A stretch of DNA of 64,000 nucleotides from Haladaptatus sp. ZSTT2 (lineage in GTDB: Archaea > Halobacteriota > Halobacteria > Halobacteriales > Halococcaceae): assembly GCF_037081775.1 (NCBI RefSeq), contig NZ_JBAMHQ010000002.1:124001-188000 (forward strand), written 5' to 3'. The first letter of the stretch is position 1. Every line of letters begins with the position of its first letter. Below are positions 41,350 through 63,709 of this stretch, one piece after another. The notes under the pieces are model-generated. The model worked only from the letters and a program-made list of their open reading frames with translations, did no database searches and was not told the DNA's origin. A program made the translations under genes and the position numbers.

Positions 41350-42275
41350 TCACACGCCCTCTGAGAGGGGAGCCAAGCTGTGTAACTTTGAAGCTATCTC
41401 GGCAATCTCCGCACTTTCGGTGATCTCCCTTACCCATCGATTAGGTAATGAATCACCACCGAATCTAGCCCCTGCAACAGCTCCCGTTACCGCTCCAATT
41501 GTGTCCGTATCGCCCCCTCTATTCACTGAGGTGATAATCGCTTGCTCAGCACTCCTTGCTGTCAAGGCATCATGCAACGCTGTCTGTAAGGTCGTCACGA
41601 CATATCCAGTCGTTTCCAGCGACTCTGGTTCTCTCCCATTTGCGATCGGTTCGAGGGCGGCTATAAGTTCTTCTGGCGCAGACTCTTCGACCTGAGCTAG
41701 CGCTGTCTCAAGTGGTGAGTTCTCCTCCCGCAAGAGTCCAGCAATTGTGAGATTCAAGATTGCACAGCCCTCCTGGCATCGAGGATCTGCATGAGTAATG
41801 AGTGAGGATTGTCGACTGACTTCTGCAAGTCGGTCCTTATTATCTCGATACGTAATCGCGAGTGGGGCACATCGCATTATACTCCCGTTTCCTGCATTGC
41901 TCCCTTCTTTTGATTTTCCCATATGGCTTGCCCGGAAACGTCCCAAGGCCTCCCTCGCGCAATTGCTTTGATCGCTCGTTGGGTGAGAATACCAACATCG
42001 AATGGACCGGTTTCATACCACTCCACAAATCGATTCGCAATATCCTCTGGATCAAATGTTCCACATTCGACGAGACTCCAAGCAATACAAAGAGCTTGGT
42101 CAGTGTCGTCAGTGAGAGTTCCAGGAGACTTTCCCCACCTGCCGAACCCCTCCATCTCTGAGAGGCGGCCATATTCGCTCTCTATTTCGTCTGTTGATTC
42201 GAATTCGACTGGTCGTCCGAGCGCATCTCCACACGCGAGTCCCATAAAAACACCTTTCGCAGCTTCATCGCTCAT
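41350..42275 (-). pseudogene. ADP-ribosylglycohydrolase with one frameshift
   Basis: The N-terminal part from ATG 42275 has MGLACGDALGRPVEFES and GTLTDDTDQAL, both metal-binding motifs of the ARH family, and runs to about 41905. The second half continues in another frame with SNAGNGSIMRCAPLA and GGDTDTIGAVTGAVAGARFG, the C-terminal metal site. The two frames meet at an A/G-rich run (41901-41912); a one-base shift joins them into a full-length ~308-residue enzyme. So this is a broken gene, a sequencing error or a case of programmed slippage. Confidence 0.75.
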
Positions 42276-42476
42276 ACAACACATCAATCAAGAAATAATA
42301 AGAACGGACAGCATGATTTTCAAAGTACAGCACTATGAAGCGATAGAACTCACTTCAAAACAATACACTCAGCTGAGCCCATTCAGGATGCTGAACTGAC
42401 TCCTTTACTCAGAACGGGAATCGGTAGAGAATCGTATTCCGCCACTTGAAACGCGTATCATATATGATGATCTCGA

Positions 42477-42901: not shown

Positions 42902-45844
42902 TTAGAAGAAGTCGAGCTCCGTGGGTGCATCATCGGTTAGACTCCCGCTTTGCTCTTCGAATTCAAATGAATCTGGTCCCTCCGTTACGCCTAAGAATAC
43001 TGGTCCACCTTGTGTCACCGTCAACATATGATTCGCCTCGTTGATGATTATTGTCCCCCCACCTTTCTGCTCTAACACGAATTCGGCAACTGAAACGATC
43101 TCCGGGTTGGTAATGAACTCCCGGCGATTTTGCCGCTCTTTGAACGGGCGGCCTTGCGCATCCACGCTGAACTGATAACCTTCACGCGGCCCTGGATAGG
43201 GGTCGCCCATCTCTAGCTCTGTAGGGTCTGGAATTGTTACCTCGAAGTCATCGCTTGTTGGCAGTGGGTCATCAGTCAGAACAAGTTCTCCTTCCAACAT
43301 GGAGTCTCCAGCATCCCAATAGTAGTGATGAACTTCTGCGTTCGCAAGCTGTTCATCCCAGTCATACTCCTTGAAAAGCCGCTCATCTATGGTATCACGG
43401 GCATAGAGCACGTACAATTGAGACGTCTTTCCCTCATCAGATCCTGTACGGAGCACACGGCCAAACGTTTGGATTCGCTGGCGTAAGCTGCTGTTCGAAA
43501 CCCGAATAATGCCCACATCAGCACTTGGGACGTCGACTCCCTCGACGAGAGCTTTGACACTGAGCATTACGTTTGCAAATCCGTCTGCACGGAACCACTC
43601 CATCGCATAATCGTTCCAGGCATCTCGAGAATGACCTGAGTGATACATTGCAGGCCAAAATTTAGACTCGCTAAACAGCTCTTCAATCGCTAAGTCCACC
43701 TGTTTCAAGTCTTCATACAACTCATACTGTTCTTGCCGACCGGATGCCCCCTCAGTTAGCTTTCCAGTTCGAGGATTCCTGTCTCGCCGCTCATGAGGCG
43801 CAACCAATTGCTCTAACTGCGCGATATGCTCTTGGAACACGATCGATTTCTTCCCGGACTCGACCGCATTTCGAAGCAATTTCAGCGTAATCGATTGGCG
43901 GTAGATAGAATCTGCAACAAGGTCCCGACGCTCTTGAGTGAATTCGAAGAAGTCGGCAATAGCAGGCGTTGGACCATCAGCACTGTTCATCAAGGTCTGG
44001 AGCTTCTGGTGGAAATTTCCATTCAATTGGTAGAGGCGATCTCCGTACAGCATGTCGATCTCGTTGATTGCATTCGAGATCTTCTTCGTGTACTGGTCGT
44101 ATAACCGGCGCTCACGGTCGGTAAGTTCAAACCCAACATAATTCACCTCGAACGGTGGAATCAGCCCCCGTTTGAGTGCTTCATCATACGTGAGATTATA
44201 GTAGATGTCTCCCAGTTCACTGATGAGCAGCTCATCCGCCGGAGAGTACTGTTCAGAGCAATCTTTTTCGACAATTCCAATATTTGATGTTGGAGTCGCC
44301 GAGAGGCCAAGCGAAGCAGTTCGGTGATACGAAAAGATGTTAGAGAAAACATCACCGGTATACCGATGACATTCGTCTGCGATCAAGAGATGTGGGGGAT
44401 CCCCCACCGACTTCAGCGACTCTGCAAGGTAGTCTTCATTGACTGCCGTATTGACGATACTGACAACAATTCGGCGGCCCTTCTCGAATCCATCGCGAGT
44501 TCCATCGCCGGCCCACCCTAAGTCCTCGACTGGCACATTGAGCTTCGTAATGAGCTCTGTGAGCCATTGGTCCATCAATACTTTCGTCGGAACAATTATC
44601 GTCACAACGCCATCCTCAGTAGAGACTAACCACTCCCGTATTGCTCCGAGTGCCATGACTGTTTTTCCAGCCCCGGTCACAACTTGCGCAATTCCCCGAG
44701 TTGGCGGCGTTCGCGAATTCGCGAACCACTGGTAGACTGCTTCAACCTGCCAGTCGAACAACTCGAACGAATCAGGGAACGTGTAAGGGTCTCGTCCAGC
44801 GTCAACAAGCGTCTCAAGGTCTGCACGGGATACCCCAGACCCGGCGGAGACTCTAATACGGTTCGCTTCAGTTGGGTCAGGGGCATCCCGAATTCGCTTC
44901 AGAACGTCTGTTGAAAGTCCACTCAATAGCTGACTTTCAATCCCATGGATCTGCTTTATCTCTCGTCTGAGATCCTTACGATTGGTCCGGGCTTCCATAT
45001 AATCAGCTGAGCGCTGGAGCTGAGGTCGGACTGTATTGCCCTCCCGTGCATCTGCTGAGAGAAATTCTCGCCAGAAGGGTTTGAGCCAGGCTGTCTGCTT
45101 TCCCATCCCACCTGACTCGCGGTACATGTAGTATTTCATCATGTCACGTTTCACCGAGCTCTTAGGGAGGTCGCCTGTTGCCCCTTCACGCCGAATCCAG
45201 CGTTCATAAATCCGGAACAAGTCTGCCTGTCTGAACTTGTTGAGATAGGTCTCAGCCGCTTCAGTGGGAGTGTATTTGGCAGTCGAATCATCCTTCTCTA
45301 TTGCACCAAGGAGAACAAGCAACTCAGGATACCCTCGCACACCCAGCTTGTTGAAGGAATAATTGTAGTCCTCACGGAGCGTGTATTCGATATCTGATTT
45401 TCCTAATGGTTTCTCGGCGTGGATCAGTGCATGAAGCACCCGTTCGATAGCCTCAATCTTTTCAGGCGCATTTGCTTCGAGGACCCACCCTCGTTTCAGT
45501 GACTGCCAGATAAAATCCGCAAAGTCAAGCTCAGCGTCTAACCACGCAGATCCAGTCGGCCAAAGCGAGACGAATTGCTCAGTTCGTTCACCGTCTTCTC
45601 CTTCGGTTTTTCGGGATTCTCTTCTGATGAACCCTGAGCTTACCATATCAGAGGTCATCCGTCGATTCCATGACTCACCATAGAGTTCCGAAGAATTGGG
45701 CTTCGTCACAGCCTGAAGACACCGTTCCCGAAACTCATCCCACGTAAGCTGGGTTTCTGCATCGTTAACAATAGAGAGTACCGTCTCGTAGTGGGGTTTA
45801 TACGTGGGTAATCCAACAGCACCAGGGGGAAATCTTCGTGTCAT
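42902..45844 (-). CDS. SF2 helicase with C-terminal repeat module
   Basis: A 980-residue protein. The N-terminal ~350 residues are helical with winged-helix-like parts (LTWDEFRERCLQAV). The SF2 core has Walker A VTGAGKTVMALG (~390), DECH box LIADECHRYTGD (~487), motif III LGLSATPTS and motif VI QRIQTFGRVLRTG (~810). After the core, ~870-955 repeats the module of the two upstream proteins: GYQFSVDAQGR, then GGGTIIINEANHMLTV and GPVFLGVTEG. It starts 9 nt after the preceding gene. Likely a DNA translocase of the local defence system. Confidence 0.85.
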   Translation of the reverse strand: MTRRFPPGAVGLPTYKPHYETVLSIVNDAETQLTWDEFRERCLQAVTKPNSSELYGESWNRRMTSDMVSSGFIRRESRKTEGEDGERTEQFVSLWPTGSAWLDAELDFADFIWQSLKRGWVLEANAPEKIEAIERVLHALIHAEKPLGKSDIEYTLREDYNYSFNKLGVRGYPELLVLLGAIEKDDSTAKYTPTEAAETYLNKFRQADLFRIYERWIRREGATGDLPKSSVKRDMMKYYMYRESGGMGKQTAWLKPFWREFLSADAREGNTVRPQLQRSADYMEARTNRKDLRREIKQIHGIESQLLSGLSTDVLKRIRDAPDPTEANRIRVSAGSGVSRADLETLVDAGRDPYTFPDSFELFDWQVEAVYQWFANSRTPPTRGIAQVVTGAGKTVMALGAIREWLVSTEDGVVTIIVPTKVLMDQWLTELITKLNVPVEDLGWAGDGTRDGFEKGRRIVVSIVNTAVNEDYLAESLKSVGDPPHLLIADECHRYTGDVFSNIFSYHRTASLGLSATPTSNIGIVEKDCSEQYSPADELLISELGDIYYNLTYDEALKRGLIPPFEVNYVGFELTDRERRLYDQYTKKISNAINEIDMLYGDRLYQLNGNFHQKLQTLMNSADGPTPAIADFFEFTQERRDLVADSIYRQSITLKLLRNAVESGKKSIVFQEHIAQLEQLVAPHERRDRNPRTGKLTEGASGRQEQYELYEDLKQVDLAIEELFSESKFWPAMYHSGHSRDAWNDYAMEWFRADGFANVMLSVKALVEGVDVPSADVGIIRVSNSSLRQRIQTFGRVLRTGSDEGKTSQLYVLYARDTIDERLFKEYDWDEQLANAEVHHYYWDAGDSMLEGELVLTDDPLPTSDDFEVTIPDPTELEMGDPYPGPREGYQFSVDAQGRPFKERQNRREFITNPEIVSVAEFVLEQKGGGTIIINEANHMLTVTQGGPVFLGVTEGPDSFEFEEQSGSLTDDAPTELDFF

Positions 45845-45853
45845 GGAAATTGA

Positions 45854-46705
45854 TTAAGCAACACTCTTGTTCGCACTTTTGCTGCAAGCAACGTAATAAT
45901 TCATATCAGTCACGACCGGCCGAGGAATGAGTCCCTCATCAAATTGCTCTAAATGGCCAATATATAGCGGTAGATGACCGTTTTTTGGGTCATTGTTCGG
46001 AGACGTTGCTTTGAGACGCCTCGTCACAAGCCGAAGGCCTGTAGAATCTCCTTGTGACTTCGCACGATTCTTCCAGGTCTCGAACGTAGAAAGTACCTCA
46101 TCTTGCTTTGCTGGTGGGACCTCTTCTGCAGGCGCATTCACGAAGATATGTCCGTACTCATTAATGTATAATCGCCCTCCTCTCTGCCGATACTCTTCGT
46201 ACCGTGCCACTAGTTCATCGTGAGAAAAGGCGGACTTGAACCGGTACTTTTTGCGCTTCCAGATGAGCTCACCATTGGCGTTCACTACCCATCTCTCACC
46301 GTGTCCGAACGTAAACCCATCCCAGATAGTAATTTCATCTGCTGGTGGGACCTCGGGGTCATTGTTAATTTTATTGAACCCAAGCCGACCCTCTAGTTTG
46401 CCAATGTACACCGGAATCCAACCCCGTTTATGCGGAGCCTCTTCAATGTGAGCGTAGTCATCTGAGTGGACTTTTGTTAAGACTTCACCCGCAGCAGTAA
46501 TGCGAAACGCACCGGTTCCTGTTCCATTGGTTTTCCCAACAGCCTGCATTGCTGTTACCAAATGCTGGGGTGGCTCACAGTGTGCCCTCAGGCCTCGATA
46601 GGACCACCGAACAATGTATCCACGCCCATGCCTTCTACTTTGATCAAGGCTGTATTTTGACCCTCGATACGCAGATGGCCATGGTTTTCCGGGCTCGATT
46701 GTCAC
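45854..46705 (-). CDS. Repeat-module protein B (two units)
   Basis: A 283-residue protein built of two ~110-residue units. Unit 1: GKPWPSAYRGSKYSL, GAFRITAAGEVLTKV and IPVYIGKLEG. Unit 2: WVVNANGELIWKRKKYRF, GGRLYINEYGHIFVNA and LPLYIGHLEQ. The same pattern occurs in protein A and at the end of the helicase. No enzyme motif is visible; an all-beta adaptor or nucleic-acid-binding scaffold is suggested. GTG 46705 gives an N-terminus like that of protein A; the open frame reaches 46822, which would overlap protein A by 77 nt. Confidence 0.7.
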   Translation of the reverse strand: MTIEPGKPWPSAYRGSKYSLDQSRRHGRGYIVRWSYRGLRAHCEPPQHLVTAMQAVGKTNGTGTGAFRITAAGEVLTKVHSDDYAHIEEAPHKRGWIPVYIGKLEGRLGFNKINNDPEVPPADEITIWDGFTFGHGERWVVNANGELIWKRKKYRFKSAFSHDELVARYEEYRQRGGRLYINEYGHIFVNAPAEEVPPAKQDEVLSTFETWKNRAKSQGDSTGLRLVTRRLKATSPNNDPKNGHLPLYIGHLEQFDEGLIPRPVVTDMNYYVACSKSANKSVA

Positions 46706-46745
46706 TTCTTGTCCGCTTGCCAGTGGGACTGCTGTTGGGACGAAA

Positions 46746-47705
46746 TTAATTATCCCCACCGGTGATCCTCTCCTCGGTTTTCTTGAGGTCTTCCTGCAAC
46801 CATTCGATTGGGTCATCATCAAATTCGGGTGCGGGTTCTTCCTCTTCTGTTTGCGAGTCTGTCGCTTCCGTGGCAGAATCTGGTGTTGCCTTGTGGTTCT
46901 CTGGGGAGGTCTTGTCTGTTGAACCTAGACTTGCTGCCCAATCTTCGAGTGCCTGTTCCTCCTCTGGAGAAAGATCTCGGGTGAGCGAGGGTGGCTCTTC
47001 GACGCTAAATGATGGGTTCTCAAGCGTACCAATGTATACGGGTAGCATTGAGAGGTCGGCACGTTCTTTTCGAAGTTTGATGATGTTGCGGACAACTGGA
47101 GGAAGGGACCCAAATTGTTCGCGGACGAGTTGTGGTGCTGGGTCGCGAATCAACGTGATCACATCTCCATTGGGTGTTACTCGGAACGACCCCCCCTCCG
47201 GTTTGTATACCCGAAGCTGGCGCCAGATGTTATCTGGGAGCGTTGAGGTGACTGAATGGTTCTTTCGTGTTTGAGTATTACGCCACCAAAGGCGGCCGTT
47301 CACGTTGTATGAATATCGGGCCCCATCGTAGACGCTTGGCCATAAATCGCCAGCAGAGAGGCCAGTTGGTTGGATCTCGATTGCCTTGCTTTTGTCAGCG
47401 TCCGGGACTAATTTCCCGCTCAGATCCACCTCTCCAATCCAGACACCCGTATATTCCTCAGTGTCAGATTCTTCCTCCTCGAGCTTGGTGAGCACCTGTC
47501 CAGTTTCTGTTATATGGATTCGCCCGCCAAGTGGCCGCACTTCCAACAAGTCCTCAACTATCTCCTTCGGGAAATCTTCGCACTTGAGTCGGTCAGTTCC
47601 ATTGTAGACCTGCCACCAAACGTCTTCTTTTTGGTTGACGTGTAATCGGAAGCCACGATAGTGTTCAGACCATTTTTCGCCGATAGAGAGTTTGTTTTGC
47701 GTCAT
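46746..47705 (-). CDS. Repeat-module protein A (two units)
   Basis: A 319-residue protein. Unit 1 starts GEKWSEHYRGFRLHVN, with VWWQVYNG, GGRIHITETGQVLTKL and GVWIGEVDL. Unit 2 has GDLWPSVYDGARYSYN, LWWRNTQT, GGSFRVTPNGDVITLI and LPVYIGTLEN. The C-terminal ~90 residues are disordered and very acidic (TEEEEPAPEFDDDP), ending in a short helix. Together with protein B and the helicase tail there are five units. Function unknown. It begins a subgroup of genes 190 nt after the dnd-associated gene. Confidence 0.75.
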   Translation of the reverse strand: MTQNKLSIGEKWSEHYRGFRLHVNQKEDVWWQVYNGTDRLKCEDFPKEIVEDLLEVRPLGGRIHITETGQVLTKLEEEESDTEEYTGVWIGEVDLSGKLVPDADKSKAIEIQPTGLSAGDLWPSVYDGARYSYNVNGRLWWRNTQTRKNHSVTSTLPDNIWRQLRVYKPEGGSFRVTPNGDVITLIRDPAPQLVREQFGSLPPVVRNIIKLRKERADLSMLPVYIGTLENPSFSVEEPPSLTRDLSPEEEQALEDWAASLGSTDKTSPENHKATPDSATEATDSQTEEEEPAPEFDDDPIEWLQEDLKKTEERITGGDN

Positions 47706-47895: not shown

Positions 47896-48366
47896 TTAGA
47901 CTGGACTATTGTTCTCGAAGTCGAGTTTGATCTCGCTGAGGATCGTTTCATCTTCCTCTTGGTCTTCATCTCGATGATTGGCCTGGAGGTAGGTGACAAC
48001 CGCATCGGTTGGGTCACCAGTCACATCCCCAAACTCTTCAGCAGCGATCTGTGCTCCACCTGCTGCATACTGAGCCAGAATCTGAAGTTGCTTCTTCGGG
48101 TTTAGAAGCGCTGCGGGGTCCTTTGTATCCTGGAAGGCAATCGATGCGGCGACGACACGATAGAGGTCTTTTTTCTGGAGGTGCATCCAGAGCATCTCGT
48201 TGTCCCCTTCGTAGCCTTCACGCACCACTTTGCCCTTGTTGAATCCAAGTGTTGCTGCGAACACGAAAAAGTCCACATAGGACCCAAATACCCCGTAATC
48301 GTCGACGAGAGTTTCATAGATCGGTGTCTTCTCGTAATTTACACGTGCACTTGCTGATTCACTCAT
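47896..48366 (-). CDS. DNA phosphorothioation-associated protein 4-like
   Basis: A 156-residue helical protein. VFGSYVDFFVFAATLGFNKG, then KKDLYRVVAASIAFQDT and LAQYAAGGAQIAAEEFGD follow the pattern of the dnd-associated protein 4 family (VFAAxLGY, then EYANGGLEIL). It lies 2 nt after the DndD-like gene, as expected for that family. The function of the family is not established. The acidic tail EDQEEDETILSEIK may contact the ATPase. Confidence 0.6.
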   Translation of the reverse strand: MSESASARVNYEKTPIYETLVDDYGVFGSYVDFFVFAATLGFNKGKVVREGYEGDNEMLWMHLQKKDLYRVVAASIAFQDTKDPAALLNPKKQLQILAQYAAGGAQIAAEEFGDVTGDPTDAVVTYLQANHRDEDQEEDETILSEIKLDFENNSPV

Positions 48367-48368
48367 TT

Positions 48369-50408
48369 TTATTCACCACCTGCAACCGCAGTCTGCTGAC
48401 TTTCAATATGCGTCTGTGGATAGTTCTTCTCGCCTTGTCCTCGATCATAATTCAACCAATACTGCTTGCCGACGAACGGTTGCATCTCTTCGGCAACCGC
48501 TCCATCCCACTGAGAATCAGTGGCGAAAACAATCACCTGCTCAGCCAGATGAGGCATCAACCGACCCACCTGCTTTTGGTGCGTCTTGTCTAACGACCCG
48601 AAAGGTGAGTCCATCACCACTGGGTAAATGCCACCTTTGAAATACGGCGAATCATCGCTTGTCTCATAGCGCTCACGCGCAATTGAAACAAGACTTCCAA
48701 TAAAGGCTAAACTCGCAATTTGCCGTTCACCAGTAGATTTGTCAACTGGAGCGAGTGCCCCGTCAACTTTCTGCCGAATGAGGAGCTTGAAATCCTCTGA
48801 AATATCGGCTTCTAAATCCTTGTGAGAGATCTCTGCAAAGGTCTCTTTGACCAGTCTATCCGACCATCCACGAACTGTAGATTGCAGGTCTACGAAGTTG
48901 GCCTCTAACTCTTCTCTAACAGCAACTGCCGCGGCCCGTCGGCGTTTTGCCGTAAGGGCCTTCCCTTTCTCCTCTTCTTCGGCTTCGATATCCGCTTCTA
49001 AATCCTCAATTTTCTCCTCATCATCTTGAAGACGCTGGTCGAGTCGAATGATCTGCTCTTTCGTATCCTCAAGCTGCTTTACTTTCTCTTTACGGGTACG
49101 CTCGAGCTCAGCTGGGCTTTCACGATTTTTGTCAGAGGTTTCATCTAGCCCTTCAAGCTTTGTGCTCACCTCATCGATTTTCTCAGTTAATTCCGTAACT
49201 TGCCCTTCTAGTGTTTCGCGTTCTGCAACTAGCGTATCAATTTTTTCGAACAGCTTCGACCGACCGACAGCAATGTGTTCAAGTTGGGAGATGAGGTGAA
49301 TTGCTGCTTGGTCTAAGCCTTCTATTTTGAGTTCAGACTTCCAACCTTCAACTGCTGTATAGGGGTCTGTACCTGCCTCAAGCGGGCGGTCACAAATGCA
49401 TTCTCCCTTGTTGAGAAGCCGGTCTACAAACTCATTGCTGAGCTCAGATGGGATATCTCCTTTCGCCCGAAGCTCATCAATTGCTTCGGCAGTCGCCCGA
49501 ATCGCCGGCATCCCAAACTCAAGATAGGCAGATTCTGATATCTCTTCTCGAATATTGGCATTGATCTTCTCGATTTGTTCCTCAATTTCCGCTCGCTGAG
49601 CTTCGAGCTCAGATCGGTCCTCTTCGAGTTCAGCACTCTCCTCTAACTCTTCGAGTTGGGCCTTTATATCTCCAATTTCGCCCTCGAGCGTGATTTTAGC
49701 CTCTCGTTTTGCAGAGATCTCTCGTTTCCGGTCGCGGATATCGGCCTCTAATTCATGCTTTTCTGCAAGGAGTTTCTTGAGCTCGTCACTCCCGAACTCT
49801 TCCATTTGACTCTCATATTCACTCTCGACGGTTCGCAGATGACGAATAGACCGCTCAAGAATGGTAAGGCCCATAATATTCTGAATTGCTTCCTGGACTC
49901 GGTCCTGGTTGTCTACTCCAGCGAGCTCGTCGATATCTTCTCCATCGAAGAAGAAGAGACTTCGAAGCCGGTCTGGGAGGATCTGCTTTAGACGCGTATC
50001 CGGGTTCTTCACCTCTCTCATCTCTCCATTCGCTTGTTCTTCTGCCAAGCTAATCCCCTGGTCTTCGAACACACCGTGCAGGTCGCCTTCTTTTTCTTTG
50101 CGAAGTTCTACCCACCGGGTTGCTCGAAATTCAGTCCCATCGTGCGTGAACGAGAGTGTCCCCTCAACTCGAATCCGGTTTCCAACCGCAGTTTGTGCGA
50201 CTACACCCTCATTTGGGAGATGCTCGATACCATTCTCGAAGCCAATTGCACCATACAATATCCACGGAAATGCATTCAATAGCGTCGTTTTCCCCGAGCC
50301 ATTGGGGCCGTGGATTACCGTGACGCTCTTACCCTCTTCAATCGAGAAGTCGATAGTCGCATCCTTAAATTGGCGGAAATTCTGTAGCCGGAGGGAAATT
50401 AACTCCAT
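48369..50408 (-). CDS. DndD-like SMC/Rad50-type ATPase
   Basis: A 679-residue ATPase. Walker A HGPNGSGKTTLLNAF (~33-47), a FFFDGEDIDEL segment (~170) typical of DndD, two long coiled-coil arms (~190-320 and ~375-510) with CICDRPLE at the tip, signature STGERQIASLAF (~570) and Walker B YPVVMDSPFGSLD (~612-624). DndD supplies ATPase activity to the DNA phosphorothioation complex. The partners DndC and DndE are not seen beside it, so a different use is possible. Start ATG overlaps the stop of the 59-residue gene by 1 nt. Confidence 0.8.
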   Translation of the reverse strand: MELISLRLQNFRQFKDATIDFSIEEGKSVTVIHGPNGSGKTTLLNAFPWILYGAIGFENGIEHLPNEGVVAQTAVGNRIRVEGTLSFTHDGTEFRATRWVELRKEKEGDLHGVFEDQGISLAEEQANGEMREVKNPDTRLKQILPDRLRSLFFFDGEDIDELAGVDNQDRVQEAIQNIMGLTILERSIRHLRTVESEYESQMEEFGSDELKKLLAEKHELEADIRDRKREISAKREAKITLEGEIGDIKAQLEELEESAELEEDRSELEAQRAEIEEQIEKINANIREEISESAYLEFGMPAIRATAEAIDELRAKGDIPSELSNEFVDRLLNKGECICDRPLEAGTDPYTAVEGWKSELKIEGLDQAAIHLISQLEHIAVGRSKLFEKIDTLVAERETLEGQVTELTEKIDEVSTKLEGLDETSDKNRESPAELERTRKEKVKQLEDTKEQIIRLDQRLQDDEEKIEDLEADIEAEEEEKGKALTAKRRRAAAVAVREELEANFVDLQSTVRGWSDRLVKETFAEISHKDLEADISEDFKLLIRQKVDGALAPVDKSTGERQIASLAFIGSLVSIARERYETSDDSPYFKGGIYPVVMDSPFGSLDKTHQKQVGRLMPHLAEQVIVFATDSQWDGAVAEEMQPFVGKQYWLNYDRGQGEKNYPQTHIESQQTAVAGGE

Positions 50409-50587
50409 TATTCGCTCCCTCCATCGAATGCATAGTCGACTTCATCGACTTCTGCTTCGATGATTTCCATTATCTCTGGGATGATATTGTGTGGTCGATC
50501 GAGGTGCAGTTGCTTCTTTTCCGCCTCCAGTATTTTCTCTCGAATTCGCGTTCGAGTTTTCGGATCGATTTCTATTGTATCAGTCAT
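50408..50587 (-). CDS. 59-residue acidic protein coupled to the DndD-like gene
   Basis: Starts at ATG 50587 and ends at TAA 50408-50410, which shares a base with the DndD start. Sequence: IDPKTRTRIREKILEAEKKQ, then HNIIPEIMEIIEAEVDEVDY. One basic and one acidic helix are likely. It may be a small adaptor or regulator of the ATPase, or the residue of a lost larger gene such as dndC; the own start codon argues for the former. Confidence 0.65.
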   Translation of the reverse strand: MTDTIEIDPKTRTRIREKILEAEKKQLHLDRPHNIIPEIMEIIEAEVDEVDYAFDGGSE

Positions 50588-50650: not shown

Positions 50651-52072
50651 TCACATGTGTCGTAAATTATACATCCGCTTGAGTTCACGCAACGAGCCTT
50701 CGCCTGATGGAATTCCGGGAACATCAGCATCGGGATGATTTATCGCCGCTTCGGTGAACGTTGAAACTCGCTCAAGTTCGCTCCGGATAAGTGAGCGCTC
50801 AGCGTTGAATGCATCTCCTTCAAGGCCTGTTAGGCTCCCACCTCCAGCTGGCACTGCGATAAAGTCATGAATCACGGCGAACTCCTTCCCAGGATGGGTG
50901 CGAAGAATCCGACCACGACGTTGGACAAATTGACGTGGGTTTGATGAACTCGCGAGCATGAACGCAGTTCGGGTGGCGGGCACGTCTACACCTTCGTCTA
51001 AACATCGAATCGCCACTAATGCCTCCAATTCGCCTTGTCGAAACTCCTCAAGGAGTTTTTCGCGGTCGGCTTGGGTTTCACGTGCAGTGAAGCGATTTAC
51101 GCGCAACCCTTTGGCTCGGAGTTCATCGACTGCTGCATCGACGTGGCGTTTCATCTTGCCTGTTTCTTCATTTCCGATAGACCCATCCCCACAGTATACG
51201 AGCGTATGGTCCACTGAATCCATTTGGTCGATAAGCTCGTTCAGCCGAGTGAGTTTATTTTCTGCTGTCCCCACCAGTCGTGCCCGCTTGAACAGCGCAA
51301 ATTGTAGCGAGCTGTTTCCCTGCAGGTCTGCATCGGACAGATTTCCATTGAATCGACTTGCGAGCCGACCAATCGTTCTCGTCAGTGTGAGGTATTCTTC
51401 CGTTTCATCGGCCGTCAGCTGAACGATGTGGGGGATATAGTAGTATGGACACAATGCACCGTTTTTGATTGCGGCCTGCAGGCCATACTCATAGACTACT
51501 CCACTAAAGTACTCCATCAGTTCCTCTGTTCCCTCTTCGTCGTACCACCGTTCCGGGGTGGCAGAGAGGGCCAATCGCTGCTTGAATCTCTCTGACAATC
51601 CTGAACGAAGATGAGGCGCACCCAGATGATGCGCTTCATCAGCGATCAGCATTGCTGACCGAGACGGAATCCTCGCAACCAGCCGTTGGAACGGCTTGCT
51701 CGCAAACGTTGCGTGGGTCACAATAACAACGACTGCATCTCGTGCCCCAGCGTGGTACGCAGCAAGCTGACGTTCCAGAGTCCCCTGCCATTGGCGACGA
51801 GACTTATACGCAAGAACTGGTTCAACGCCAAACTCGCGGACATCGCCCGCCCATTGGTCAACCAGATGTTGATAGGGTACAGCGATCACGAGGAATAACT
51901 GGTCGAAGTTCGCTGCTACCTGCCCTGCGGTCAACAGTGAGGTGATCGTCTTGCCCGTACCAGTAGCCATGTTGTACATGCCCTGGCCATTGTGTTTGAA
52001 CCAGGCACGAACTGCTTCTTGCTGATACTCCCGCGGTTCAACCCACGCAGGTGTCTTGAAAGTGGACGTCAT
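50651..52072 (-). CDS. SF2 helicase, phosphorothioation-type restriction enzyme-like
   Basis: A 473-residue helicase. REYQQEAVRAWFKHNGQGMY precedes Walker A NMATGTGKTITSLL (~35-47). DEAH box LIADEAHHLGA (~141-151), LALSATPERWYDEE (~167) and the C-terminal motifs VYCGDGS, AIRCLDEGVDVP and QFVQRRGRILRT are present. Size and order match the DEAD-type helicases annotated as restriction enzyme of DNA phosphorothioation systems. ATG 52072 overlaps the preceding small gene by 4 nt. Confidence 0.8.
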   Translation of the reverse strand: MTSTFKTPAWVEPREYQQEAVRAWFKHNGQGMYNMATGTGKTITSLLTAGQVAANFDQLFLVIAVPYQHLVDQWAGDVREFGVEPVLAYKSRRQWQGTLERQLAAYHAGARDAVVVIVTHATFASKPFQRLVARIPSRSAMLIADEAHHLGAPHLRSGLSERFKQRLALSATPERWYDEEGTEELMEYFSGVVYEYGLQAAIKNGALCPYYYIPHIVQLTADETEEYLTLTRTIGRLASRFNGNLSDADLQGNSSLQFALFKRARLVGTAENKLTRLNELIDQMDSVDHTLVYCGDGSIGNEETGKMKRHVDAAVDELRAKGLRVNRFTARETQADREKLLEEFRQGELEALVAIRCLDEGVDVPATRTAFMLASSSNPRQFVQRRGRILRTHPGKEFAVIHDFIAVPAGGGSLTGLEGDAFNAERSLIRSELERVSTFTEAAINHPDADVPGIPSGEGSLRELKRMYNLRHM

Positions 52073-52380
52073 GGGCAAACTCCAACTTCATTCGGCTCTC
52101 GCTCCCACAATCTCATCAGAGGACCACAAGTGCCTGCACCTCTCACTTTTTTGAAGGGAGTTCTCTGTGGAGAGTGCAAGAACTGGGTTTGACAGCTGAA
52201 TTGACCCATGCAGTTTCGTCTGTATTGTTGTCTGTGTTTTAGACACTTTACCATACCGGCATAGAAGCCATCTCTCAGGACTATCCAACCTTTACTGTGA
52301 GAGAATTCCAGGTGTAGTGAACTTCCTCTCTGGAATTGGGTACCTGGTAAGCTTCGAATGACGGCTTGTTGATTGGTCAT
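52069..52380 (-). CDS. Small basic protein between nuclease-like gene and helicase
   Basis: A 103-residue protein, 4-nt overlaps on both sides (ATGA), which is the main evidence that it is real. SSLHLEFSHSKGWIVLRDGF suggests a short beta-rich part; the rest is basic with several cysteines (CLKHR, CMGQFSC, GAGTCGP). This is unusually basic for a halophile protein, so it may bind nucleic acid. Some doubt remains because the frame is basic and of odd composition. Confidence 0.5.
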   Translation of the reverse strand: MTNQQAVIRSLPGTQFQRGSSLHLEFSHSKGWIVLRDGFYAGMVKCLKHRQQYRRNCMGQFSCQTQFLHSPQRTPFKKVRGAGTCGPLMRLWEREPNEVGVCP

Positions 52381-53105
52381 TGTTTTAGGGTCGGTGTCCA
52401 GGAGAGTTGGTGACTCCCCGGAATTTGATTGAATCTCACAGTTGTAGGATAAACTCGAAGTTCTTCTCGCGGAACCGGGCGACCATCGATAACGGCGAAC
52501 ATCGTTACAGATGGGCGTGCACGTTGCTCGATGACCCTTGCTACCTCTGTCGAGGATAAGCTTGCTTCATTCGACGAGATAATCGGAATTGACACGGCAA
52601 GGCTGAACCCAAAGGCTCGAGTCGTCAATTGCCACCAGATAACCTCGATGCCACAGTACGAGCTGATGCTCGTCAGTATCTTGGCACCCTTCATCCGCCG
52701 GGTCGCCCATGTATCAACTGCATCATAGAACGACTCCTCGGTTGCAATATATTCGCCAGTGACACTCGCGCTTGGAACGGCCAGAATCTGATACTGAATG
52801 TTTATTGTTACCGGATCACCTGTGAATTGCGTCTGTGTTGGCCAGGCGAGATGGTATCGGTGATTCTGGTCGTCTTTTCGTGATGCAAATTTTTGGACGT
52901 CGTCTTTCGCAGCATGATACCCCCCGATGCTTTCGAGCTCGAAGAGCACGGGGACGCAGTGGTGGCCACCCGCAATATCTGGACCAACCCATACGAGGGC
53001 GTCAGGGACGCCTTTTCGAGTATTGAAGCCACGTCGCTCCGTCTCGTGCTTGATTGCCGCATTTGCTAGTGTATCGCGCAGCGCGAGTGTCTCGGGCTTA
53101 TACAT
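52377..53105 (-). CDS. PD-(D/E)xK nuclease-like protein of the defence block
   Basis: A 242-residue protein. GVPDALVWVGPD followed by VLFELESIGGYHAAKDDVQK gives the D and E-x-E arrangement of a restriction-like fold, with the usual following helix. In the last residue the normal lysine is replaced by E, so activity is uncertain. The C-terminal half (WWQLTTRAFGFSLAVSIPII) is hydrophobic and probably buried. ATG 53105 overlaps the preceding gene by 8 nt; a further start at 53147 is unlikely. Confidence 0.6.
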   Translation of the reverse strand: MYKPETLALRDTLANAAIKHETERRGFNTRKGVPDALVWVGPDIAGGHHCVPVLFELESIGGYHAAKDDVQKFASRKDDQNHRYHLAWPTQTQFTGDPVTINIQYQILAVPSASVTGEYIATEESFYDAVDTWATRRMKGAKILTSISSYCGIEVIWWQLTTRAFGFSLAVSIPIISSNEASLSSTEVARVIEQRARPSVTMFAVIDGRPVPREELRVYPTTVRFNQIPGSHQLSWTPTLKQ

Positions 53106-54510
53106 TACCCAGTTTCCCCTCCTTCTGGAACGTGATGTCTCCCACAAGCTCTAGGAACTCGTCAGTGAGACCGTCAGATTGTAGTCTGCGTAGCGAAAGG
53201 GGTTCGCCCATCTCAAAGCGGAGCCATGTTTCGACAACTCCCACAGCGTCGTCCTCATAATCTCCACGAGCTGCTTGTAAGGTAGTGACCCATTCAGCAA
53301 ACGCTTTCAGCTGGTCTAATGCACTGACAGGGTTGTCTGCTACACTACCCATATCGACAGGTTCGCTCTCGTGGAACGCAGGAGCTTCCGTCAGTTGCTC
53401 TGAGACCGTCTCGACGGCTTTCTTGTGCTGTGAGAGGCGTGCATAGGTTTGCTCAACCCACTCGTCGTAGGTATCGGCAAGTGTCGAAAGCTCTGCTCCT
53501 AACTGGTCGACAGTTCGCGTCTCGTCCACCGCTGTACCAACAAGGTATGCCTCGACTACATCACGGAACGGCAAACCATCCGTCGCAAGTACCAACGACT
53601 GCTGTTCTGATTCGGCAAGTAGCTCCTCGTTGAACGACTCGAGGGAGGGTGCCCCAGCAAGTGCAGAATGAGGAACAGAGATTCCTCCTAATTTTGACGC
53701 AACCGCTCCGATGGCCGATTCCAGCTCCGCGATCGACCCCTGGAAGGCACCTGCAAGCGATTCGCGAACAGCAGCAGCAGCATGAATGACGGTTGGTATA
53801 GACATTAGTTTCTGCTCGATGGTTTCGACGTGAAGCTGTACGGCGTCCGCCTCTGATGAGTTCGCGTTGAAGCCCTTATAGTAAGAATATGTTTCGCTGA
53901 TCCCCGAAGCCGCCGCAGGTGCCCACTCGACATCGTCGAACGCACTCTCGAGCGCACACATGGTATCGTACCACTCGACCAACTCGCTCACCTGCGTGGA
54001 CAACTGTTCGTATTCAAGTAATTTGCTGACCCGACTTGCTGAGGCCTCGTTTACATACTCTCGCGTGCACTCACGCACGATTTCAGGGCTATTTCGAAGC
54101 GATTCTTCGCAGGTACTGTAAGTCGCAGTGGCCTCTTGGAGTTGGTCTGCCTCCATGGTTTTCAGGTTCTTGTCGATGGTGTGACGGTTGTCTTTGGTCA
54201 ACGACAGGCTCAGTGTGCCGCAGAGCTCATTAAGAGCTTGAGTGGCCGCTTCCCGAACGGGATCTGCAAGCGCAACTTCCAAACTCCCAACCATATGCTC
54301 GTAGTCCGTGAGTTTGGTTGCTGTCGCCGCTTCGACTTTGATCCCAAAGACGGCATTCATGAATGCATTACGAGGCTCGGCTTCGAGGGCCTCCCACTGC
54401 AGAATAACGTCCTCTAGACGATCTGCAAGAGCATCATATTCCTTTCCATCAGCATTTGCTTCGTCAGCATAGTCCTCGAGCGAGTCAAGCACTGGGTACT
54501 CAGTGTTCAT
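53098..54510 (-). CDS. Helical partner protein of the large ATPase
   Basis: A 470-residue, mostly helical, acidic protein with long heptad-like stretches (LEDYADEANADGKEYDALAD, TYDEWVEQTYARLSQHKKAV). No catalytic motif. It starts 4 nt inside the end of the 1034-residue ATPase gene (ATGA), so both are made together. In size and type it recalls the helical middle subunits (such as DndG) of phosphorothioate restriction complexes, but no sequence match is claimed. Confidence 0.65.
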   Translation of the reverse strand: MNTEYPVLDSLEDYADEANADGKEYDALADRLEDVILQWEALEAEPRNAFMNAVFGIKVEAATATKLTDYEHMVGSLEVALADPVREAATQALNELCGTLSLSLTKDNRHTIDKNLKTMEADQLQEATATYSTCEESLRNSPEIVRECTREYVNEASASRVSKLLEYEQLSTQVSELVEWYDTMCALESAFDDVEWAPAAASGISETYSYYKGFNANSSEADAVQLHVETIEQKLMSIPTVIHAAAAVRESLAGAFQGSIAELESAIGAVASKLGGISVPHSALAGAPSLESFNEELLAESEQQSLVLATDGLPFRDVVEAYLVGTAVDETRTVDQLGAELSTLADTYDEWVEQTYARLSQHKKAVETVSEQLTEAPAFHESEPVDMGSVADNPVSALDQLKAFAEWVTTLQAARGDYEDDAVGVVETWLRFEMGEPLSLRRLQSDGLTDEFLELVGDITFQKEGKLGNV

Positions 54511-58855: not shown

Positions 58856-59788
58856 TTATCGAGCCAATGATGGCGAAAGTTGAGCTTCAATCTCAGGAAC
58901 GTTCGTGGCGAGAATCTCATCTACTTCCCCCCGGTTCTCGCCATCAGAATTGATGTATCGCTTTGCACCTTCGATTGTGACAGTGAACCCTTCATCTTCG
59001 TAGTGCGGAGCCATCACTCCACTATTGCTCAGAATAACATAGGCATCCATCTCATGGAGTTCACGTGCAACGGAGAGCAGCGTCGCTTGGTCACGTTGGC
59101 CAAAGCCCTCCTTTGAATACTCCGTAAATTCTGCGGTCGTGCTCATTGGTGTGTACGGAGGGTCAAAGTACACGAGATCACCCGCTGTGGCTTCATCCAA
59201 GACATATTCAAAACTCTCATCAAAAATTTCGACAGTGGATTCCTGAAGTACTCTACTTGCTTCTCTTACCAAATCGGCTCGCTCCCAATTTGGTTCGGAA
59301 TACCTTCCAACTGGGACATTAAACTCACCGTCCCGATTTTCGCGATAAAGGCCATTGAAACAGGTTCGATTGAGGTACAACAGTATGGCAGCCTCCTCAA
59401 TTTCATCGAAAGGTTCCTCATCTGGTGGGTTATTGAACAGCCGGCGTTGTTGATAGTAGTACCAATTTGCATCCCGCTTTTCTTCGACTTCCTCTGCGAA
59501 CGGTCGCTCGGGGTCAGGGGATTTATGTGGGTCTCTGAATTTAGACGCGCGTTTGAGGACCTTCTCGGGATTATCACGAATTTGTCGATAGAAATTCATC
59601 AATCGAGAATTTGTATCATTGATGGTTGCTGCTGTAGGTTCTAAGTCGAAAAAGAGGGCTCCACCTCCGAAAAAGGGCTCATGATACGTGGTAGTCGCAG
59701 AAGAACTATCCTCCTCAGGGAAGTGAGCGTAGATCTCATCGAGGAGGCGTCGTTTTCCACCAGCCCATTTGAGTACGGGGTCGACCAT
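58856..59788 (-). CDS. D12-class adenine-N6 DNA methyltransferase (Dam-like)
   Basis: A 310-residue enzyme. LKWAGGKRRLLDEIYAHFP starts the S-adenosylmethionine-binding fold, then EPFFGGGALFFDL (motif I), LYLNRTCFNGLYRENRDG and the catalytic YFDPPYTP (DPPY, ~203-210), followed by YVILSNS. This is the order of the D12/Dam family. Target sequence cannot be read. The N-terminal extension to 59866 is doubtful; ATG 59788 is preferred with a TATA-like TTTTAAC ~27-35 nt upstream. It diverges from the second methylase. Confidence 0.9.
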   Translation of the reverse strand: MVDPVLKWAGGKRRLLDEIYAHFPEEDSSSATTTYHEPFFGGGALFFDLEPTAATINDTNSRLMNFYRQIRDNPEKVLKRASKFRDPHKSPDPERPFAEEVEEKRDANWYYYQQRRLFNNPPDEEPFDEIEEAAILLYLNRTCFNGLYRENRDGEFNVPVGRYSEPNWERADLVREASRVLQESTVEIFDESFEYVLDEATAGDLVYFDPPYTPMSTTAEFTEYSKEGFGQRDQATLLSVARELHEMDAYVILSNSGVMAPHYEDEGFTVTIEGAKRYINSDGENRGEVDEILATNVPEIEAQLSPSLAR

Positions 59789-59916
59789 CGTACTGGTGTA
59801 CTCTGCTCGTCTTCGGTTAAAAGAATAGCCTTTCTTGTGAAGAGAACCGTCTATGAAATTGAACATATTACGCAGAAAAGTTTACCTCCGGCCACGAACC
59901 GATATACGGATAGACA
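59789..59916. promoter_or_regulatory. Divergent promoter region between the two methyltransferase genes
   Basis: 128 bp serve both genes. Minus-strand TATA-like sequence at 59814-59823 and plus-strand A+T-rich CATATTACG (~59864) or GATATACG (~59901) are candidates. Methylation of sites here could couple both genes; none is obvious. Confidence 0.35.
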
Positions 59917-60840
59917 ATGGCGGAGCCAATTTTGAAATGGGCGGGAGGCAAACGCCAACTGATTGACGAACTCTATGCGCGATTTCCGAATGATTACAAC
60001 AAAAAGAACAATGCCTATCACGAGCCATTTTTCGGCGGAGGGGCACTTTTTTTCGCTCATAGACCGCGCCGTGGCACAATAAACGATTATAACGGGAGTC
60101 TTGTGAACTTCTATCGACAAGTTCGCAATAATCCCCAACGGTTGATTCAGCGATGTAAGGATTTCAAGCGTCCGACCTATGATCAACTCGACGGTGAATT
60201 TCGTGATGAGAAGAATTACTTTTACCAGCAGCGGGCTCGGTTTAATTGGCTGCAACAACAGGAGACTCGAAACACGCTTGAAGAGGCGGCGTTACTTCTG
60301 TATCTCAATCGAACCTGCTTCAATGGGATGTATCGAGAAAACGAAAAAGGAGAGTTCAATGTCCCGATTGGCGATATATCGAATCCAGACTGGGTACGAG
60401 CGGAACAAATTCGAAGTGCCAGTACAGTATTAAACCAATTACCAGATTCAGCCATTCATAATGAAGACTTCTCATATGTTCTCGATGAAGTAGTTGAGGG
60501 GGACCTCGTGTATTTTGACCCTCCATATGCACCGGTGAGTGATACTGCATACTTCACAACCTACAGCGGGGGTCAATTTGGAGAAGATGAACAAGAACGC
60601 GTAATTGAGGTTGCAGAGCAACTGCACAATAATGGCGTACACGTCATTCTCAGCAATAGTGAGGCGATGAAGGAAAAATACGAGGAAATCGAAGGATTCC
60701 ATGTTGAGATTGTAAAGGCCACCCGCTCGGTCAACAGCGATGGCGAAAATCGTGGTGAGGTCAACGAGGTGGTTGCGACGAACAACCCTAGTGAAAAACG
60801 TGGGAACTACCTTCACGCATCATGGGATCGGTACAGATAA
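59917..60840 (+). CDS. D12-class adenine-N6 DNA methyltransferase (second Dam-like)
   Basis: A 307-residue paralogue of the divergent neighbour. LKWAGGKRQLIDELYARFP, EPFFGGGALFFAH, LYLNRTCFNGMYRENEKG and YFDPPYAPVSDTAYF are all present. The substrate-recognition middle (~100-180) differs from the neighbour's, so the two may read different sites or different strands of an asymmetric site. No matching restriction endonuclease is visible. It converges on the helicase-nuclease gene, 25 nt apart. Confidence 0.9.
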   Translation: MAEPILKWAGGKRQLIDELYARFPNDYNKKNNAYHEPFFGGGALFFAHRPRRGTINDYNGSLVNFYRQVRNNPQRLIQRCKDFKRPTYDQLDGEFRDEKNYFYQQRARFNWLQQQETRNTLEEAALLLYLNRTCFNGMYRENEKGEFNVPIGDISNPDWVRAEQIRSASTVLNQLPDSAIHNEDFSYVLDEVVEGDLVYFDPPYAPVSDTAYFTTYSGGQFGEDEQERVIEVAEQLHNNGVHVILSNSEAMKEKYEEIEGFHVEIVKATRSVNSDGENRGEVNEVVATNNPSEKRGNYLHASWDRYR

Positions 60841-60865: not shown

Positions 60866-63709
60866 TTACAGTGTGTTCGCGGCGAGTGCTTCTATCTCTG
60901 ATTTCGAGAGTGGGTCGATTGACACCTCAGTACCGAGTTCTGTGTAGAAGATAGTTGGTGTAATCTCTTTTTCAGGATAGACATCACTGATGACGTGATA
61001 GTAGATACTCAATTGTTTTCTATACTCATTTTCTGCGTGTCGCCCACGGTCTGTTTTGTAATCGATAATATCCACACAATCCTGCTGGATGTGGAGTAAA
61101 TCTACAGTCCCTGTGATCGTTACTCTTGTTCCATTGACGTGAACAGGTAAGAAGACGGGTTTCTCGACGACAAGCTCACCCGTTAGTGAATAGAGGAATG
61201 ATTTGACATGTTCTTCATCAGAGTTCGTGGGGATTGCGTTGCCGTGTTTCACTAAGGTTTCTGCAAAGTCGTGTACCTGTGTCCCAAACTCTGGACCCAT
61301 CCCGTTGCTACCACCCTTCACCATAGCCATTAAATCATGAGCGGACTTTCTGACCGGCCGAGATGTTTCTGGAATGGTCACTGAAAGTGGTTCGAATGCT
61401 TCTTCCGGTGGCTCCATTGGTGATGGCGTTCCAGTTATCTCTACAGGGTCAACCGGCAAATTCTCGAAGAAGGGGCTTGGATTTTTGCTGGCTGAGAATA
61501 TTAGATGGAACTTTGCGCGGGTCATTGCCACGTACATCAACCGGCGCTCTTCGTCATAATCCGTTTGTAAGCACCCATTGAGGATGTCGTACCGCCAGTT
61601 CCCGTAGACATGCGGTGAGCCATGTACTCTGGATGCAATTTTTGATTGGCGAATCCCAATTGGTTCAGCAAATCGAATCGAATCCGAACCTCCACCGCTA
61701 GGGGGGAACGATGATTGATTGATATTTGCAAGTATCACAATAGGGTGTTCAAGGCCTTTCGCAGCGTGTATCGTTTGGACGGTTACACTATTTCCACCAG
61801 GGTCATCATCGACCTCTTGCGTACTTGCTTCTCCATGGCTTTGTTCGATGAAGTGTATGATTTCACCTCGATTGAGGTACGTGCTCGAATTGATCGACTC
61901 CAAGACGCTGATCAACGTATCGCTGTAGGCATCTGAAAGGCCGTATTTCGTGAATACACGACGGCAGAGCCCGCCAATCGACTCGGTCTCCAACAAGTCC
62001 TCTCGAAATTCGATCATCACATCAGGATACGATTCGGTATCGAGGATATGGCGAATTTCATCGAGGTTATAGCCTGTTTGTTCGAGGACAACCGCCCATC
62101 CCCGCCTCGAGTTTGGGCTTTCGAGAATGCGTAACCAGGCTAAGAGTAGCAGGGCATGGTCGGTATCGAATAATTCGAGACCACCCTCATACGCAACTGG
62201 AATATTATAGTCTGTGGCCGTGTGCTGGAGTTGTCTTCCGAAGCGACGAATTCGAGTTAGAACAGCGATGTCCTGGTATGTTGGGGACCTCCACTCTCCT
62301 TCGTCTTTCACTGCATACGCCGGGTTTCCAACGATCGACTGAATTTTCTCGAGTACCCCCTCCAACTCATCACTACAAGTGACCGCCTCAATTGACGATT
62401 CATCCCATGAAAGATTTGTCTCTAGTGATGTGATTTTTGCCTGAATTCCGGCCACACCAATATCCTCATCGCTCGATGCTGGAAGAGTAAGGGCGTGTTC
62501 AGAGAAATCAAGGATAGATTGTGATGACCGATAATTTTGATTCAATGGGATCGTATTGATAGGCGTGACTGGGAAAGAGATGCGCTCAGCATCACTGTTA
62601 AGTTCCTCTTTGTACTGAGTCAACCTGGATTCAAACTCCTGGATGTTTTCGACAGCGGCATACTGGAACCCGTAAATGCTCTGTTTCCAATCTCCAACTA
62701 CACAGAAATTGTCCCGGTTGGCAAAGAGCAACGACAGCTTGAATTGAATCTCGTTGGTGTCTTGAAACTCGTCTATCATCACGTACTCATGTTGGAGATC
62801 CTCCCGGAGGGTGTGATCCTCACAGAGTAGTGAATATGTGAACATCAAAAGCATCCAGAAAGTGAGATAATTCTGGCTGAGAGCGTATTCGATGTATTGG
62901 AAGTAGACATCGTGAACGAACTGCTTGAGTGCTTTGCGGTCCTCAAAAAATGCTTGTTCTGCCAATTCTGCGTCGATTTGTTTGTCCCCCCAATCTCCTC
63001 GAACCTGGGATTCTGCTGGTGCGTCTGATAAATAGCAATTTTTTCCCCAACCGCTGAGCTTGGCTCGAAGATCGGATTGTGTCGGCCCTGACGCACCTTG
63101 GTTTGGCTCGTTCGCAGCTATAAACAGCTCCTGGAAAGCATCAAAATCCCCATCCAAATACTCCTCTCCATGTCGGTACCAGCCCTCACGTTCTGGATAG
63201 ATTCCTTTCGCTGCGAGCGAACCAATCAGGTCTAACAGCGAAAGAGGAGAGTTGAGCACTTGCAACTGTTCGTGGTATTCTGGATGACTGTCGGCGAATT
63301 GCTGTATGAATTCGCGGAAGCGATTCTTCTCGAGCACACTTTCTTCGATAAGTTGTGTAGAACTCGTAATATGGTCCTCAATTCCCAGTGTATTCGGAGC
63401 ATTGAATCCATGTGCTAGCAACAGCTGATGACAGTGGGCGTGAAATGTGCTAATCGGGGCGTCTCGGAGCGCAGCCATACTATAGTCGCAGTTGTTGACA
63501 ATGCGTTCTCTCATCTCAGCGGCTGCGTTGTTTGTAAACGTGAACAATAGCACGTCAGCGGGTTCGACCTTATCTTGTGATAGAATATTCGCGTACCGAT
63601 GTGTAATTGCGAATGTTTTACCAGTTCCTGCGCCTGCGTCGACGAGATGGATACCGTCAGTCGCATCTATCAGTTCTTGCTGTCGTGGATTTGGCGATAT
63701 TTCACTCAT
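60866..63709 (-). CDS. AddA/UvrD-like helicase-nuclease
   Basis: A 947-residue SF1 helicase with a C-terminal nuclease. PRQQELIDATDGIHLVDAGA followed by GTGKTFAITHRY is motif I (~25-37), then VMIDEFQDTNEIQF (motif II), VGDWKQSIYGFQYA, VQTIHAAKGLEHPIVILAN and YVAMTRAKFHLIF. The last ~180 residues hold the RecB/Cas4-like nuclease motif VDIIDYKTDRG with QLSIYYH. It should unwind and degrade DNA ends. Its ATG overlaps the stop of an upstream gene (ATGAGTGA), so the two work together. Confidence 0.9.
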   Translation of the reverse strand: MSEISPNPRQQELIDATDGIHLVDAGAGTGKTFAITHRYANILSQDKVEPADVLLFTFTNNAAAEMRERIVNNCDYSMAALRDAPISTFHAHCHQLLLAHGFNAPNTLGIEDHITSSTQLIEESVLEKNRFREFIQQFADSHPEYHEQLQVLNSPLSLLDLIGSLAAKGIYPEREGWYRHGEEYLDGDFDAFQELFIAANEPNQGASGPTQSDLRAKLSGWGKNCYLSDAPAESQVRGDWGDKQIDAELAEQAFFEDRKALKQFVHDVYFQYIEYALSQNYLTFWMLLMFTYSLLCEDHTLREDLQHEYVMIDEFQDTNEIQFKLSLLFANRDNFCVVGDWKQSIYGFQYAAVENIQEFESRLTQYKEELNSDAERISFPVTPINTIPLNQNYRSSQSILDFSEHALTLPASSDEDIGVAGIQAKITSLETNLSWDESSIEAVTCSDELEGVLEKIQSIVGNPAYAVKDEGEWRSPTYQDIAVLTRIRRFGRQLQHTATDYNIPVAYEGGLELFDTDHALLLLAWLRILESPNSRRGWAVVLEQTGYNLDEIRHILDTESYPDVMIEFREDLLETESIGGLCRRVFTKYGLSDAYSDTLISVLESINSSTYLNRGEIIHFIEQSHGEASTQEVDDDPGGNSVTVQTIHAAKGLEHPIVILANINQSSFPPSGGGSDSIRFAEPIGIRQSKIASRVHGSPHVYGNWRYDILNGCLQTDYDEERRLMYVAMTRAKFHLIFSASKNPSPFFENLPVDPVEITGTPSPMEPPEEAFEPLSVTIPETSRPVRKSAHDLMAMVKGGSNGMGPEFGTQVHDFAETLVKHGNAIPTNSDEEHVKSFLYSLTGELVVEKPVFLPVHVNGTRVTITGTVDLLHIQQDCVDIIDYKTDRGRHAENEYRKQLSIYYHVISDVYPEKEITPTIFYTELGTEVSIDPLSKSEIEALAANTL

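Follow-up and report, generated by a model that had tools for sequence, protein, structure and literature searches.

Two described systems are close to the locus presented here. PbeABCD, grouped with the CxC ABC-ATPase-DndE systems (PMC6459918, PMC10853773), is reported to inhibit replication without cleavage (PMC6459918). In the haloarchaeal APAP system, i.e. a long-A pAgo together with the PLD protein AgaP, the ago-agaP operon of Natrinema pellirubrum by itself confers immunity on Haloarcula hispanica, as shown by Cheng et al. (PMC11442185), who also remark that some operons of this kind have a helicase gene nearby. The three genes described below, which were absent from that immunity experiment, lie beside relatives of the first system in the DNA analysed here and beside the second in N. 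pellirubrum.

A domain repeated in three neighbouring proteins

The window, i.e. the whole stretch of 64,000 nucleotides that was analysed, corresponds to C2:124001-188000, C2 being a haloarchaeal contig of 404 kb. ORFs were called mechanically, and three of them follow each other on the minus strand in the order A (47705-46746), B (46822-45854) and Hel (45844-42902):

46746..47705, minus strand: protein A, 319 aa, two units of the shared domain and an acidic C-terminal tail with FDDDPIEW (20 orthologues aligned)
47400..47699, minus strand: unit A1, residues 3-102 (HMM, profile comparison, AlphaFold)
47013..47369, minus strand: unit A2, residues 113-231 (HMM, profile comparison, AlphaFold)
45854..46822, minus strand: protein B, 322 aa as ORF, two units of the shared domain
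46370..46708, minus strand: unit B1, residues 39-151 (HMM, profile comparison)
45935..46342, minus strand: unit B2, residues 161-296 (HMM, profile comparison)
42902..45844, minus strand: Hel, 980 aa, winged-helix-like N-terminus, XPB-like SF2 core and C-terminal shared domain
42956..43240, minus strand: Hel-tail unit, residues 869-963 (HMM, profile comparison, AlphaFold)

The true start of B probably lies later than that of the ORF, most homologues having 295-308 aa. The initial annotation had proposed a module repeated five times across these genes, and we can confirm that A and B (two copies each) and the C-terminus of Hel (one copy) contain one domain of about 75-100 residues; the five strings quoted for it are all found in the translations at the positions given. 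An HMM made from the family itself, and hence not independent of it, recovers the five units with domain E-values of 1e-22 to 2e-29. In profile-profile comparisons, with each unit represented by about 20 orthologues, all ten pairs (scores 26.7-84.6) exceed every one of the 60 column-shuffled controls per pair (maxima 16.9-24.9), which rules out chance repetition. A1, A2 and B1 are strongly linked to one another, with A2-B1 (98.4%, E 8e-15) as the top pair and A1-A2 at 98.2%, and A1-Hel (95%, E 2e-8) and A2-B2 (91%) are well linked; individual pairs with Hel are uneven (33-95%). As B1-B2 (27%) and A2-Hel (33%) are the least linked, the family is joined by transitivity through the other units.

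The AlphaFold models of A and Hel were calculated separately from different, thin alignments (13 and 11 sequences, respectively; two of the five A models are poor), and A1, A2 and the Hel tail have one common order of elements, strand-strand-strand-helix-strand-strand-strand (beta3-alpha-beta3), within spans modelled mostly at pLDDT 75-90 (A1 18-92, A2 129-227, Hel tail 889-953). A2 contains a two-helix insertion ahead of its last strand. Among the first 23 Foldseek PDB matches of A, almost all are sliding clamps, mostly PCNA, as are most rows of a second look. The domain might thus be a distant PCNA-like DNA-clamp fold and the three proteins a translocase with a clamp-like scaffold that restricts by blocking or remodelling DNA, in line with the reported inhibition of replication by PbeABCD without cleavage (PMC6459918). 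However, the matches (E 0.06, TM near 0.15, Z no higher than 3.5) are within noise. A clamp half-domain has the order strand, helix, three strands, unlike the unit with its three strands, helix and three strands, and we consider this reading very improbable.

The domain had not been recognised in the initial annotation, and our searches of Pfam, NCBIfam, PADLOC, PHROGs and PDB sequences gave no convincing match either, the first four of which argue against a known domain. No family of Pfam, NCBIfam, PADLOC or PHROGs matches A or B above its cut-off or with E 0.001, and whole A and B reach E 0.75 or worse against PDB sequences; a library of viral structures gave no match. Rows for calmodulin (E at least 0.0085), which cover a short stretch of a unit, were taken as chance. 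The domain thus appears to be undescribed, an earlier description being possible as the open-access literature was covered by keyword search.

Hel is an XPB-like SF2 helicase. The AlphaFold model of its N-terminal region (about residues 1-340) consists of helices and beta hairpins, which we read as winged helices, and the SF2 core (about residues 355-850) has intact motifs (Walker A TGAGKT, DECH, SAT, GRVLRT). According to structure comparison the nearest solved fold to this core is that of XPB-type SF2 helicases (archaeal XPB with Bax1), to which Hel adds the winged-helix-like region and the C-terminal shared domain. The NCBIfam XPB model gives 46 bits for Hel, i.e. does not reach its cut-off of 610, and E 2e-12 to 8e-17, below cut-off, for the Hel proteins; of the family models, TIGR04095, the Dnd restriction helicase, scores best with 114 bits (cut-off 600). 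In PADLOC, A and B are unmatched and Hel matches PbeA in the helicase core only. A search of A, B and Hel for a nuclease or other effector domain found none.

Distribution of the trio

With A as query, 391 genomes of the class yielded 24 with a match, and in 22 of these the match extends over the greater part of A. The trio is present in about 6% of the sampled haloarchaeal genomes, scattered across genera, and both other sampled species of the genus are without it, as is genome G109. Matches in a phylum-wide sample are confined to genomes of the same order, and two short peptide patterns, scanned non-exhaustively against 84,980 species genomes, occurred in haloarchaea only. A scan of genome contigs with the A protein of the window alone gave no match, an alignment then giving 12 loci; in the viral contigs and phage records searched, A was not found.

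The unit profile detects exactly five copies in 18 genomes and seven copies in three (G000, G368, G374), the latter corresponding to one A, one Hel and two B. Single copies in G108 and G303 are broken ends (remnants) of Hel, a further single copy is found in G289, and G080, G093, G329 and G404 have weak matches. In the sampled genomes the domain is limited to haloarchaea and, remnants apart, to the trio.

The XPB-like core of Hel and the location of several trio copies on megaplasmids would suit a housekeeping or plasmid-maintenance module for DNA repair or replication. Yet the scattered occurrence, the lack of the trio in both congeneric species and the restriction and defence genes that are constantly nearby speak against a role outside defence, which we regard as improbable.

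Partner genes and subunit types

The informative part of the locus is its defence context, unseen in the initial annotation. Upstream of A, the window contains a Pbe-like set, two methyltransferase genes and part of a second partner unit:

47896..48366, minus strand: PbeD/DndE-like protein, 156 aa (TIGR04062 51.5 bits, below the cut-off of 74.25; no PADLOC match)
48369..50408, minus strand: PbeC, CxC-type ABC ATPase, 679 aa (E 1e-213; CIC in the coiled-coil part)
50408..50587, minus strand: ORF of 59 aa in the position of PbeB, without family match
50651..52078, minus strand: PbeA-like SF2 helicase, 475 aa, lacking the PLD/HKD nuclease domain that PbeA has at its N-terminus
58856..59866, minus strand: D12 adenine methyltransferase, a possible self-marking enzyme
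59917..60840, plus strand: second D12 adenine methyltransferase, head to head with the first
60866..63709, minus strand: UvrD helicase with a C-terminal PD-(D/E)XK match, part of the second partner unit

The PbeA-like, PbeC and PbeD-like genes lie directly upstream of A, and G368 has the same order next to its trio, including a PbeD/DndE-like homologue at the same place. The match of the window's PbeA-like helicase begins at profile position 246 of 672 and HxKx4D is absent from it; the PbeA-like protein of G368 likewise lacks the PLD domain. DndC was searched for in the window's genome and not found, and phosphorothioation (PT) genes are absent. As both the PLD domain of PbeA and DndC are missing, the set differs from PT-coupled PbeABCD. 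The ten window proteins that were scanned showed no match to DndF, DndG or DndH. Adenine methylation by D12 may be the self-mark of the window system, and a D12 gene is located within about 10 kb of the trio in G368 and G255, too; methylation partners for solitary Pbe have been proposed earlier (Xiong et al., PMC6459918). The two D12 genes of the window are related and 50 bp apart.

The second partner unit is completed by a PD-(D/E)XK protein and a second B (C2:187702-190275 and 190423-191343), i.e. this B lies about 2.4 kb past the window, beside the PD-(D/E)XK protein and UvrD. It is adjoined, together with a Mrr_cat/DUF7226 protein, by an SNF2-helicase remnant of the commonest partner set (locus L078 5792-6220, plus strand; C2 at about 191.8 kb). 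Elsewhere in the window, an operon on the minus strand (54507-57611, 53098-54510, 52377-53147) encodes a 1034-aa P-loop, a 470-aa and a 256-aa protein and is perhaps a further defence set; the 256-aa protein (52377-53147) looks PD-(D/E)XK-like by eye (PD...ELES), with no support from any tool, and a similar-looking AAA set is found outside the window (L078 12340-17995).

Across the genomes, with partners assigned from stretches of about 20 kb, 14 of 20 loci contain an SNF2 helicase, a Cys-rich protein of about 1000-1200 aa and a Mrr-type nuclease together with B (the SNF2/Zn/Mrr set). This set is usually divergent from A-Hel (in Halopenitus all genes have one direction), and B is part of the effector operon, 6-7 kb from A-Hel; in the remaining loci A-B-Hel are contiguous. 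The trio is adjoined by DndCDEA, including DndC, in G119, by a PD-(D/E)XK-UvrD pair in Halorubrum salsamenti, by a GapS1/NERD-like protein in Halorussus, Halobaculum and Halalkaliarchaeum, and by Argonaute and a PLD protein in N. pellirubrum; in one other genome, G349, a DndH-like protein adjoins A. In G255 (L033, a short contig) the trio is without an identified nuclease partner.

The haloarchaeal protein between SNF2 helicase and Mrr nuclease (L031 11593-14970 and homologues, 1000-1200 aa) is a very long Cys/His array with no Pfam match over cut-off. An AAA/VWA/MBL-fold set is situated directly beside Hel in several haloarchaea (L031 290-5938, L036 16409-18700, L120 15759-23263). An ADP-ribosylglycohydrolase-like gene of the window (41350-42287, minus strand) is split over two frames, and homologues of it are found close to the trio at five or more further loci (L033, L039, L080, Haloferax lucentense pSVX82-3, Halorhabdus tiamatea pHTIA).

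In the tree of B, the 16 SNF2/Zn/Mrr-linked proteins form one clade (100/99), with one label change on the tree. Four genomes carry two B of different types (the window's genome, G368, H. salsamenti and the MAG Haloquadratum LUM.47), and species descent can thus not account for the grouping. Each of the three two-B genomes with counted domain copies has one A and one Hel, i.e. a second partner in one genome comes with its own B, but without a second A or Hel. The second B of the window's genome groups with the UvrD/NERD/Argonaute type, its placement being unsure due to a long branch (86/89). The A tree contains the same main groups, and the acidic tail motif DDDPxxW, present in 16 of 20 A proteins, is missing in exactly the four of the UvrD/NERD/Argonaute-partner type. 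The Hel tree agrees only partly: the UvrD-linked Hel joins that of the window and not, as in the trees of A and B, the NERD/Argonaute type.

That the three proteins work together is well supported: they co-occur in nearly every domain-bearing genome, an operon frequently contains all three, and partner type largely divides their trees in the same way. The suggestion in the initial annotation that they assemble thereby gains indirect support. Direct assembly of A, B and Hel through the shared domain is plausible. The trio might also be a self-contained defence system, capable of recognition and effect by itself, whose place in defence islands beside unrelated systems is no more than accumulation, in line with the high diversity of partners, the G255 locus and the immunity provided by APAP without the trio (PMC11442185). 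We regard this as rather unlikely, since A, B and Hel lack a detectable nuclease or effector domain, the SNF2/Zn/Mrr/B order is conserved with B residing at a distance from A-Hel, and the type of B tracks the partner.

A possible DNA-translocase platform and its relation to known systems

What can be read from the sequences is the shared domain, the fixed trio, the exchange of partners and the types of B (and A) that follow the partner. We give an even chance to the explanation that A, B and Hel constitute a DNA-translocase complex of haloarchaea which is associated with defence and connects to different antiviral effectors. Hel would be the ATP-driven dsDNA translocase, whose C-terminal domain may dock onto its relatives in A and B to form a scaffold. 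As B alone is duplicated where a second effector is present, B could be the coupling subunit fitted to one type of effector, with A and Hel common to all. Since the UvrD/NERD/Argonaute-partner type, and no other, lacks the A tail, this tail may be a second docking peptide. Effector nucleases (Mrr, PLD, PD-(D/E)XK, NERD/GapS1-like) or sensors (CxC ATPase-DndE) would then be delivered along invading DNA, the window partners being a PbeABCD-like set that has lost the PLD nuclease domain of PbeA, and D12 adenine methylation being the candidate self-mark. Some neighbours may be chance, since defence islands juxtapose unrelated genes.

Only tentatively do we extend this to a universal exchangeable engine, i.e. 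one A-Hel translocase per cell that would serve several unrelated effectors (Mrr restriction set, Pbe-like ATPase, UvrD-nuclease, Argonaute-PLD, PT modification), each with its own B adaptor and all joined by one new domain. If the platform exists, APAP, Pbe-like systems and the undescribed SNF2/Zn/Mrr set, now held separate, use one DNA motor, which would explain the recurrence of helicases beside haloarchaeal defence systems and render effector swapping directly testable. The shared domain would be a marker for such loci, and the platform would suggest concretely what Pbe-like sets that lack a nuclease or PT marks depend on.

A, B and Hel are no part of PbeABCD as described. In N. pellirubrum, A-B-Hel lie on the same strand as agaP, 100 nt downstream of it, and the 717-aa ORF before A (HSK105...GSPN157, G119/S120/D122) is AgaP, as its HxK(x)49GSxN motif and residue numbers agree exactly with those given in PMC11442185. 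The immunity reported there implies that the trio is dispensable for this effector, at least in the heterologous host; a keyword search of the same source gives no description of A, B or the shared domain, and in the window, the genes on either side of the trio include neither long-A pAgo nor AgaP. In the commonest partner set, the SNF2 protein resembles the SNF2 helicases DISARM DrmD and BREX BrxHI (E about 1e-70), and DrmA/DrmB/DrmC, PglX and PglZ were not recognised among the scanned proteins. BRIGADE and ARMADA are built on a YprA helicase with DUF1998, which is unreported for the proteins scanned here, but BRIGADE, just like the trio, is limited to halophilic archaea and combines helicases (PMC12458937).
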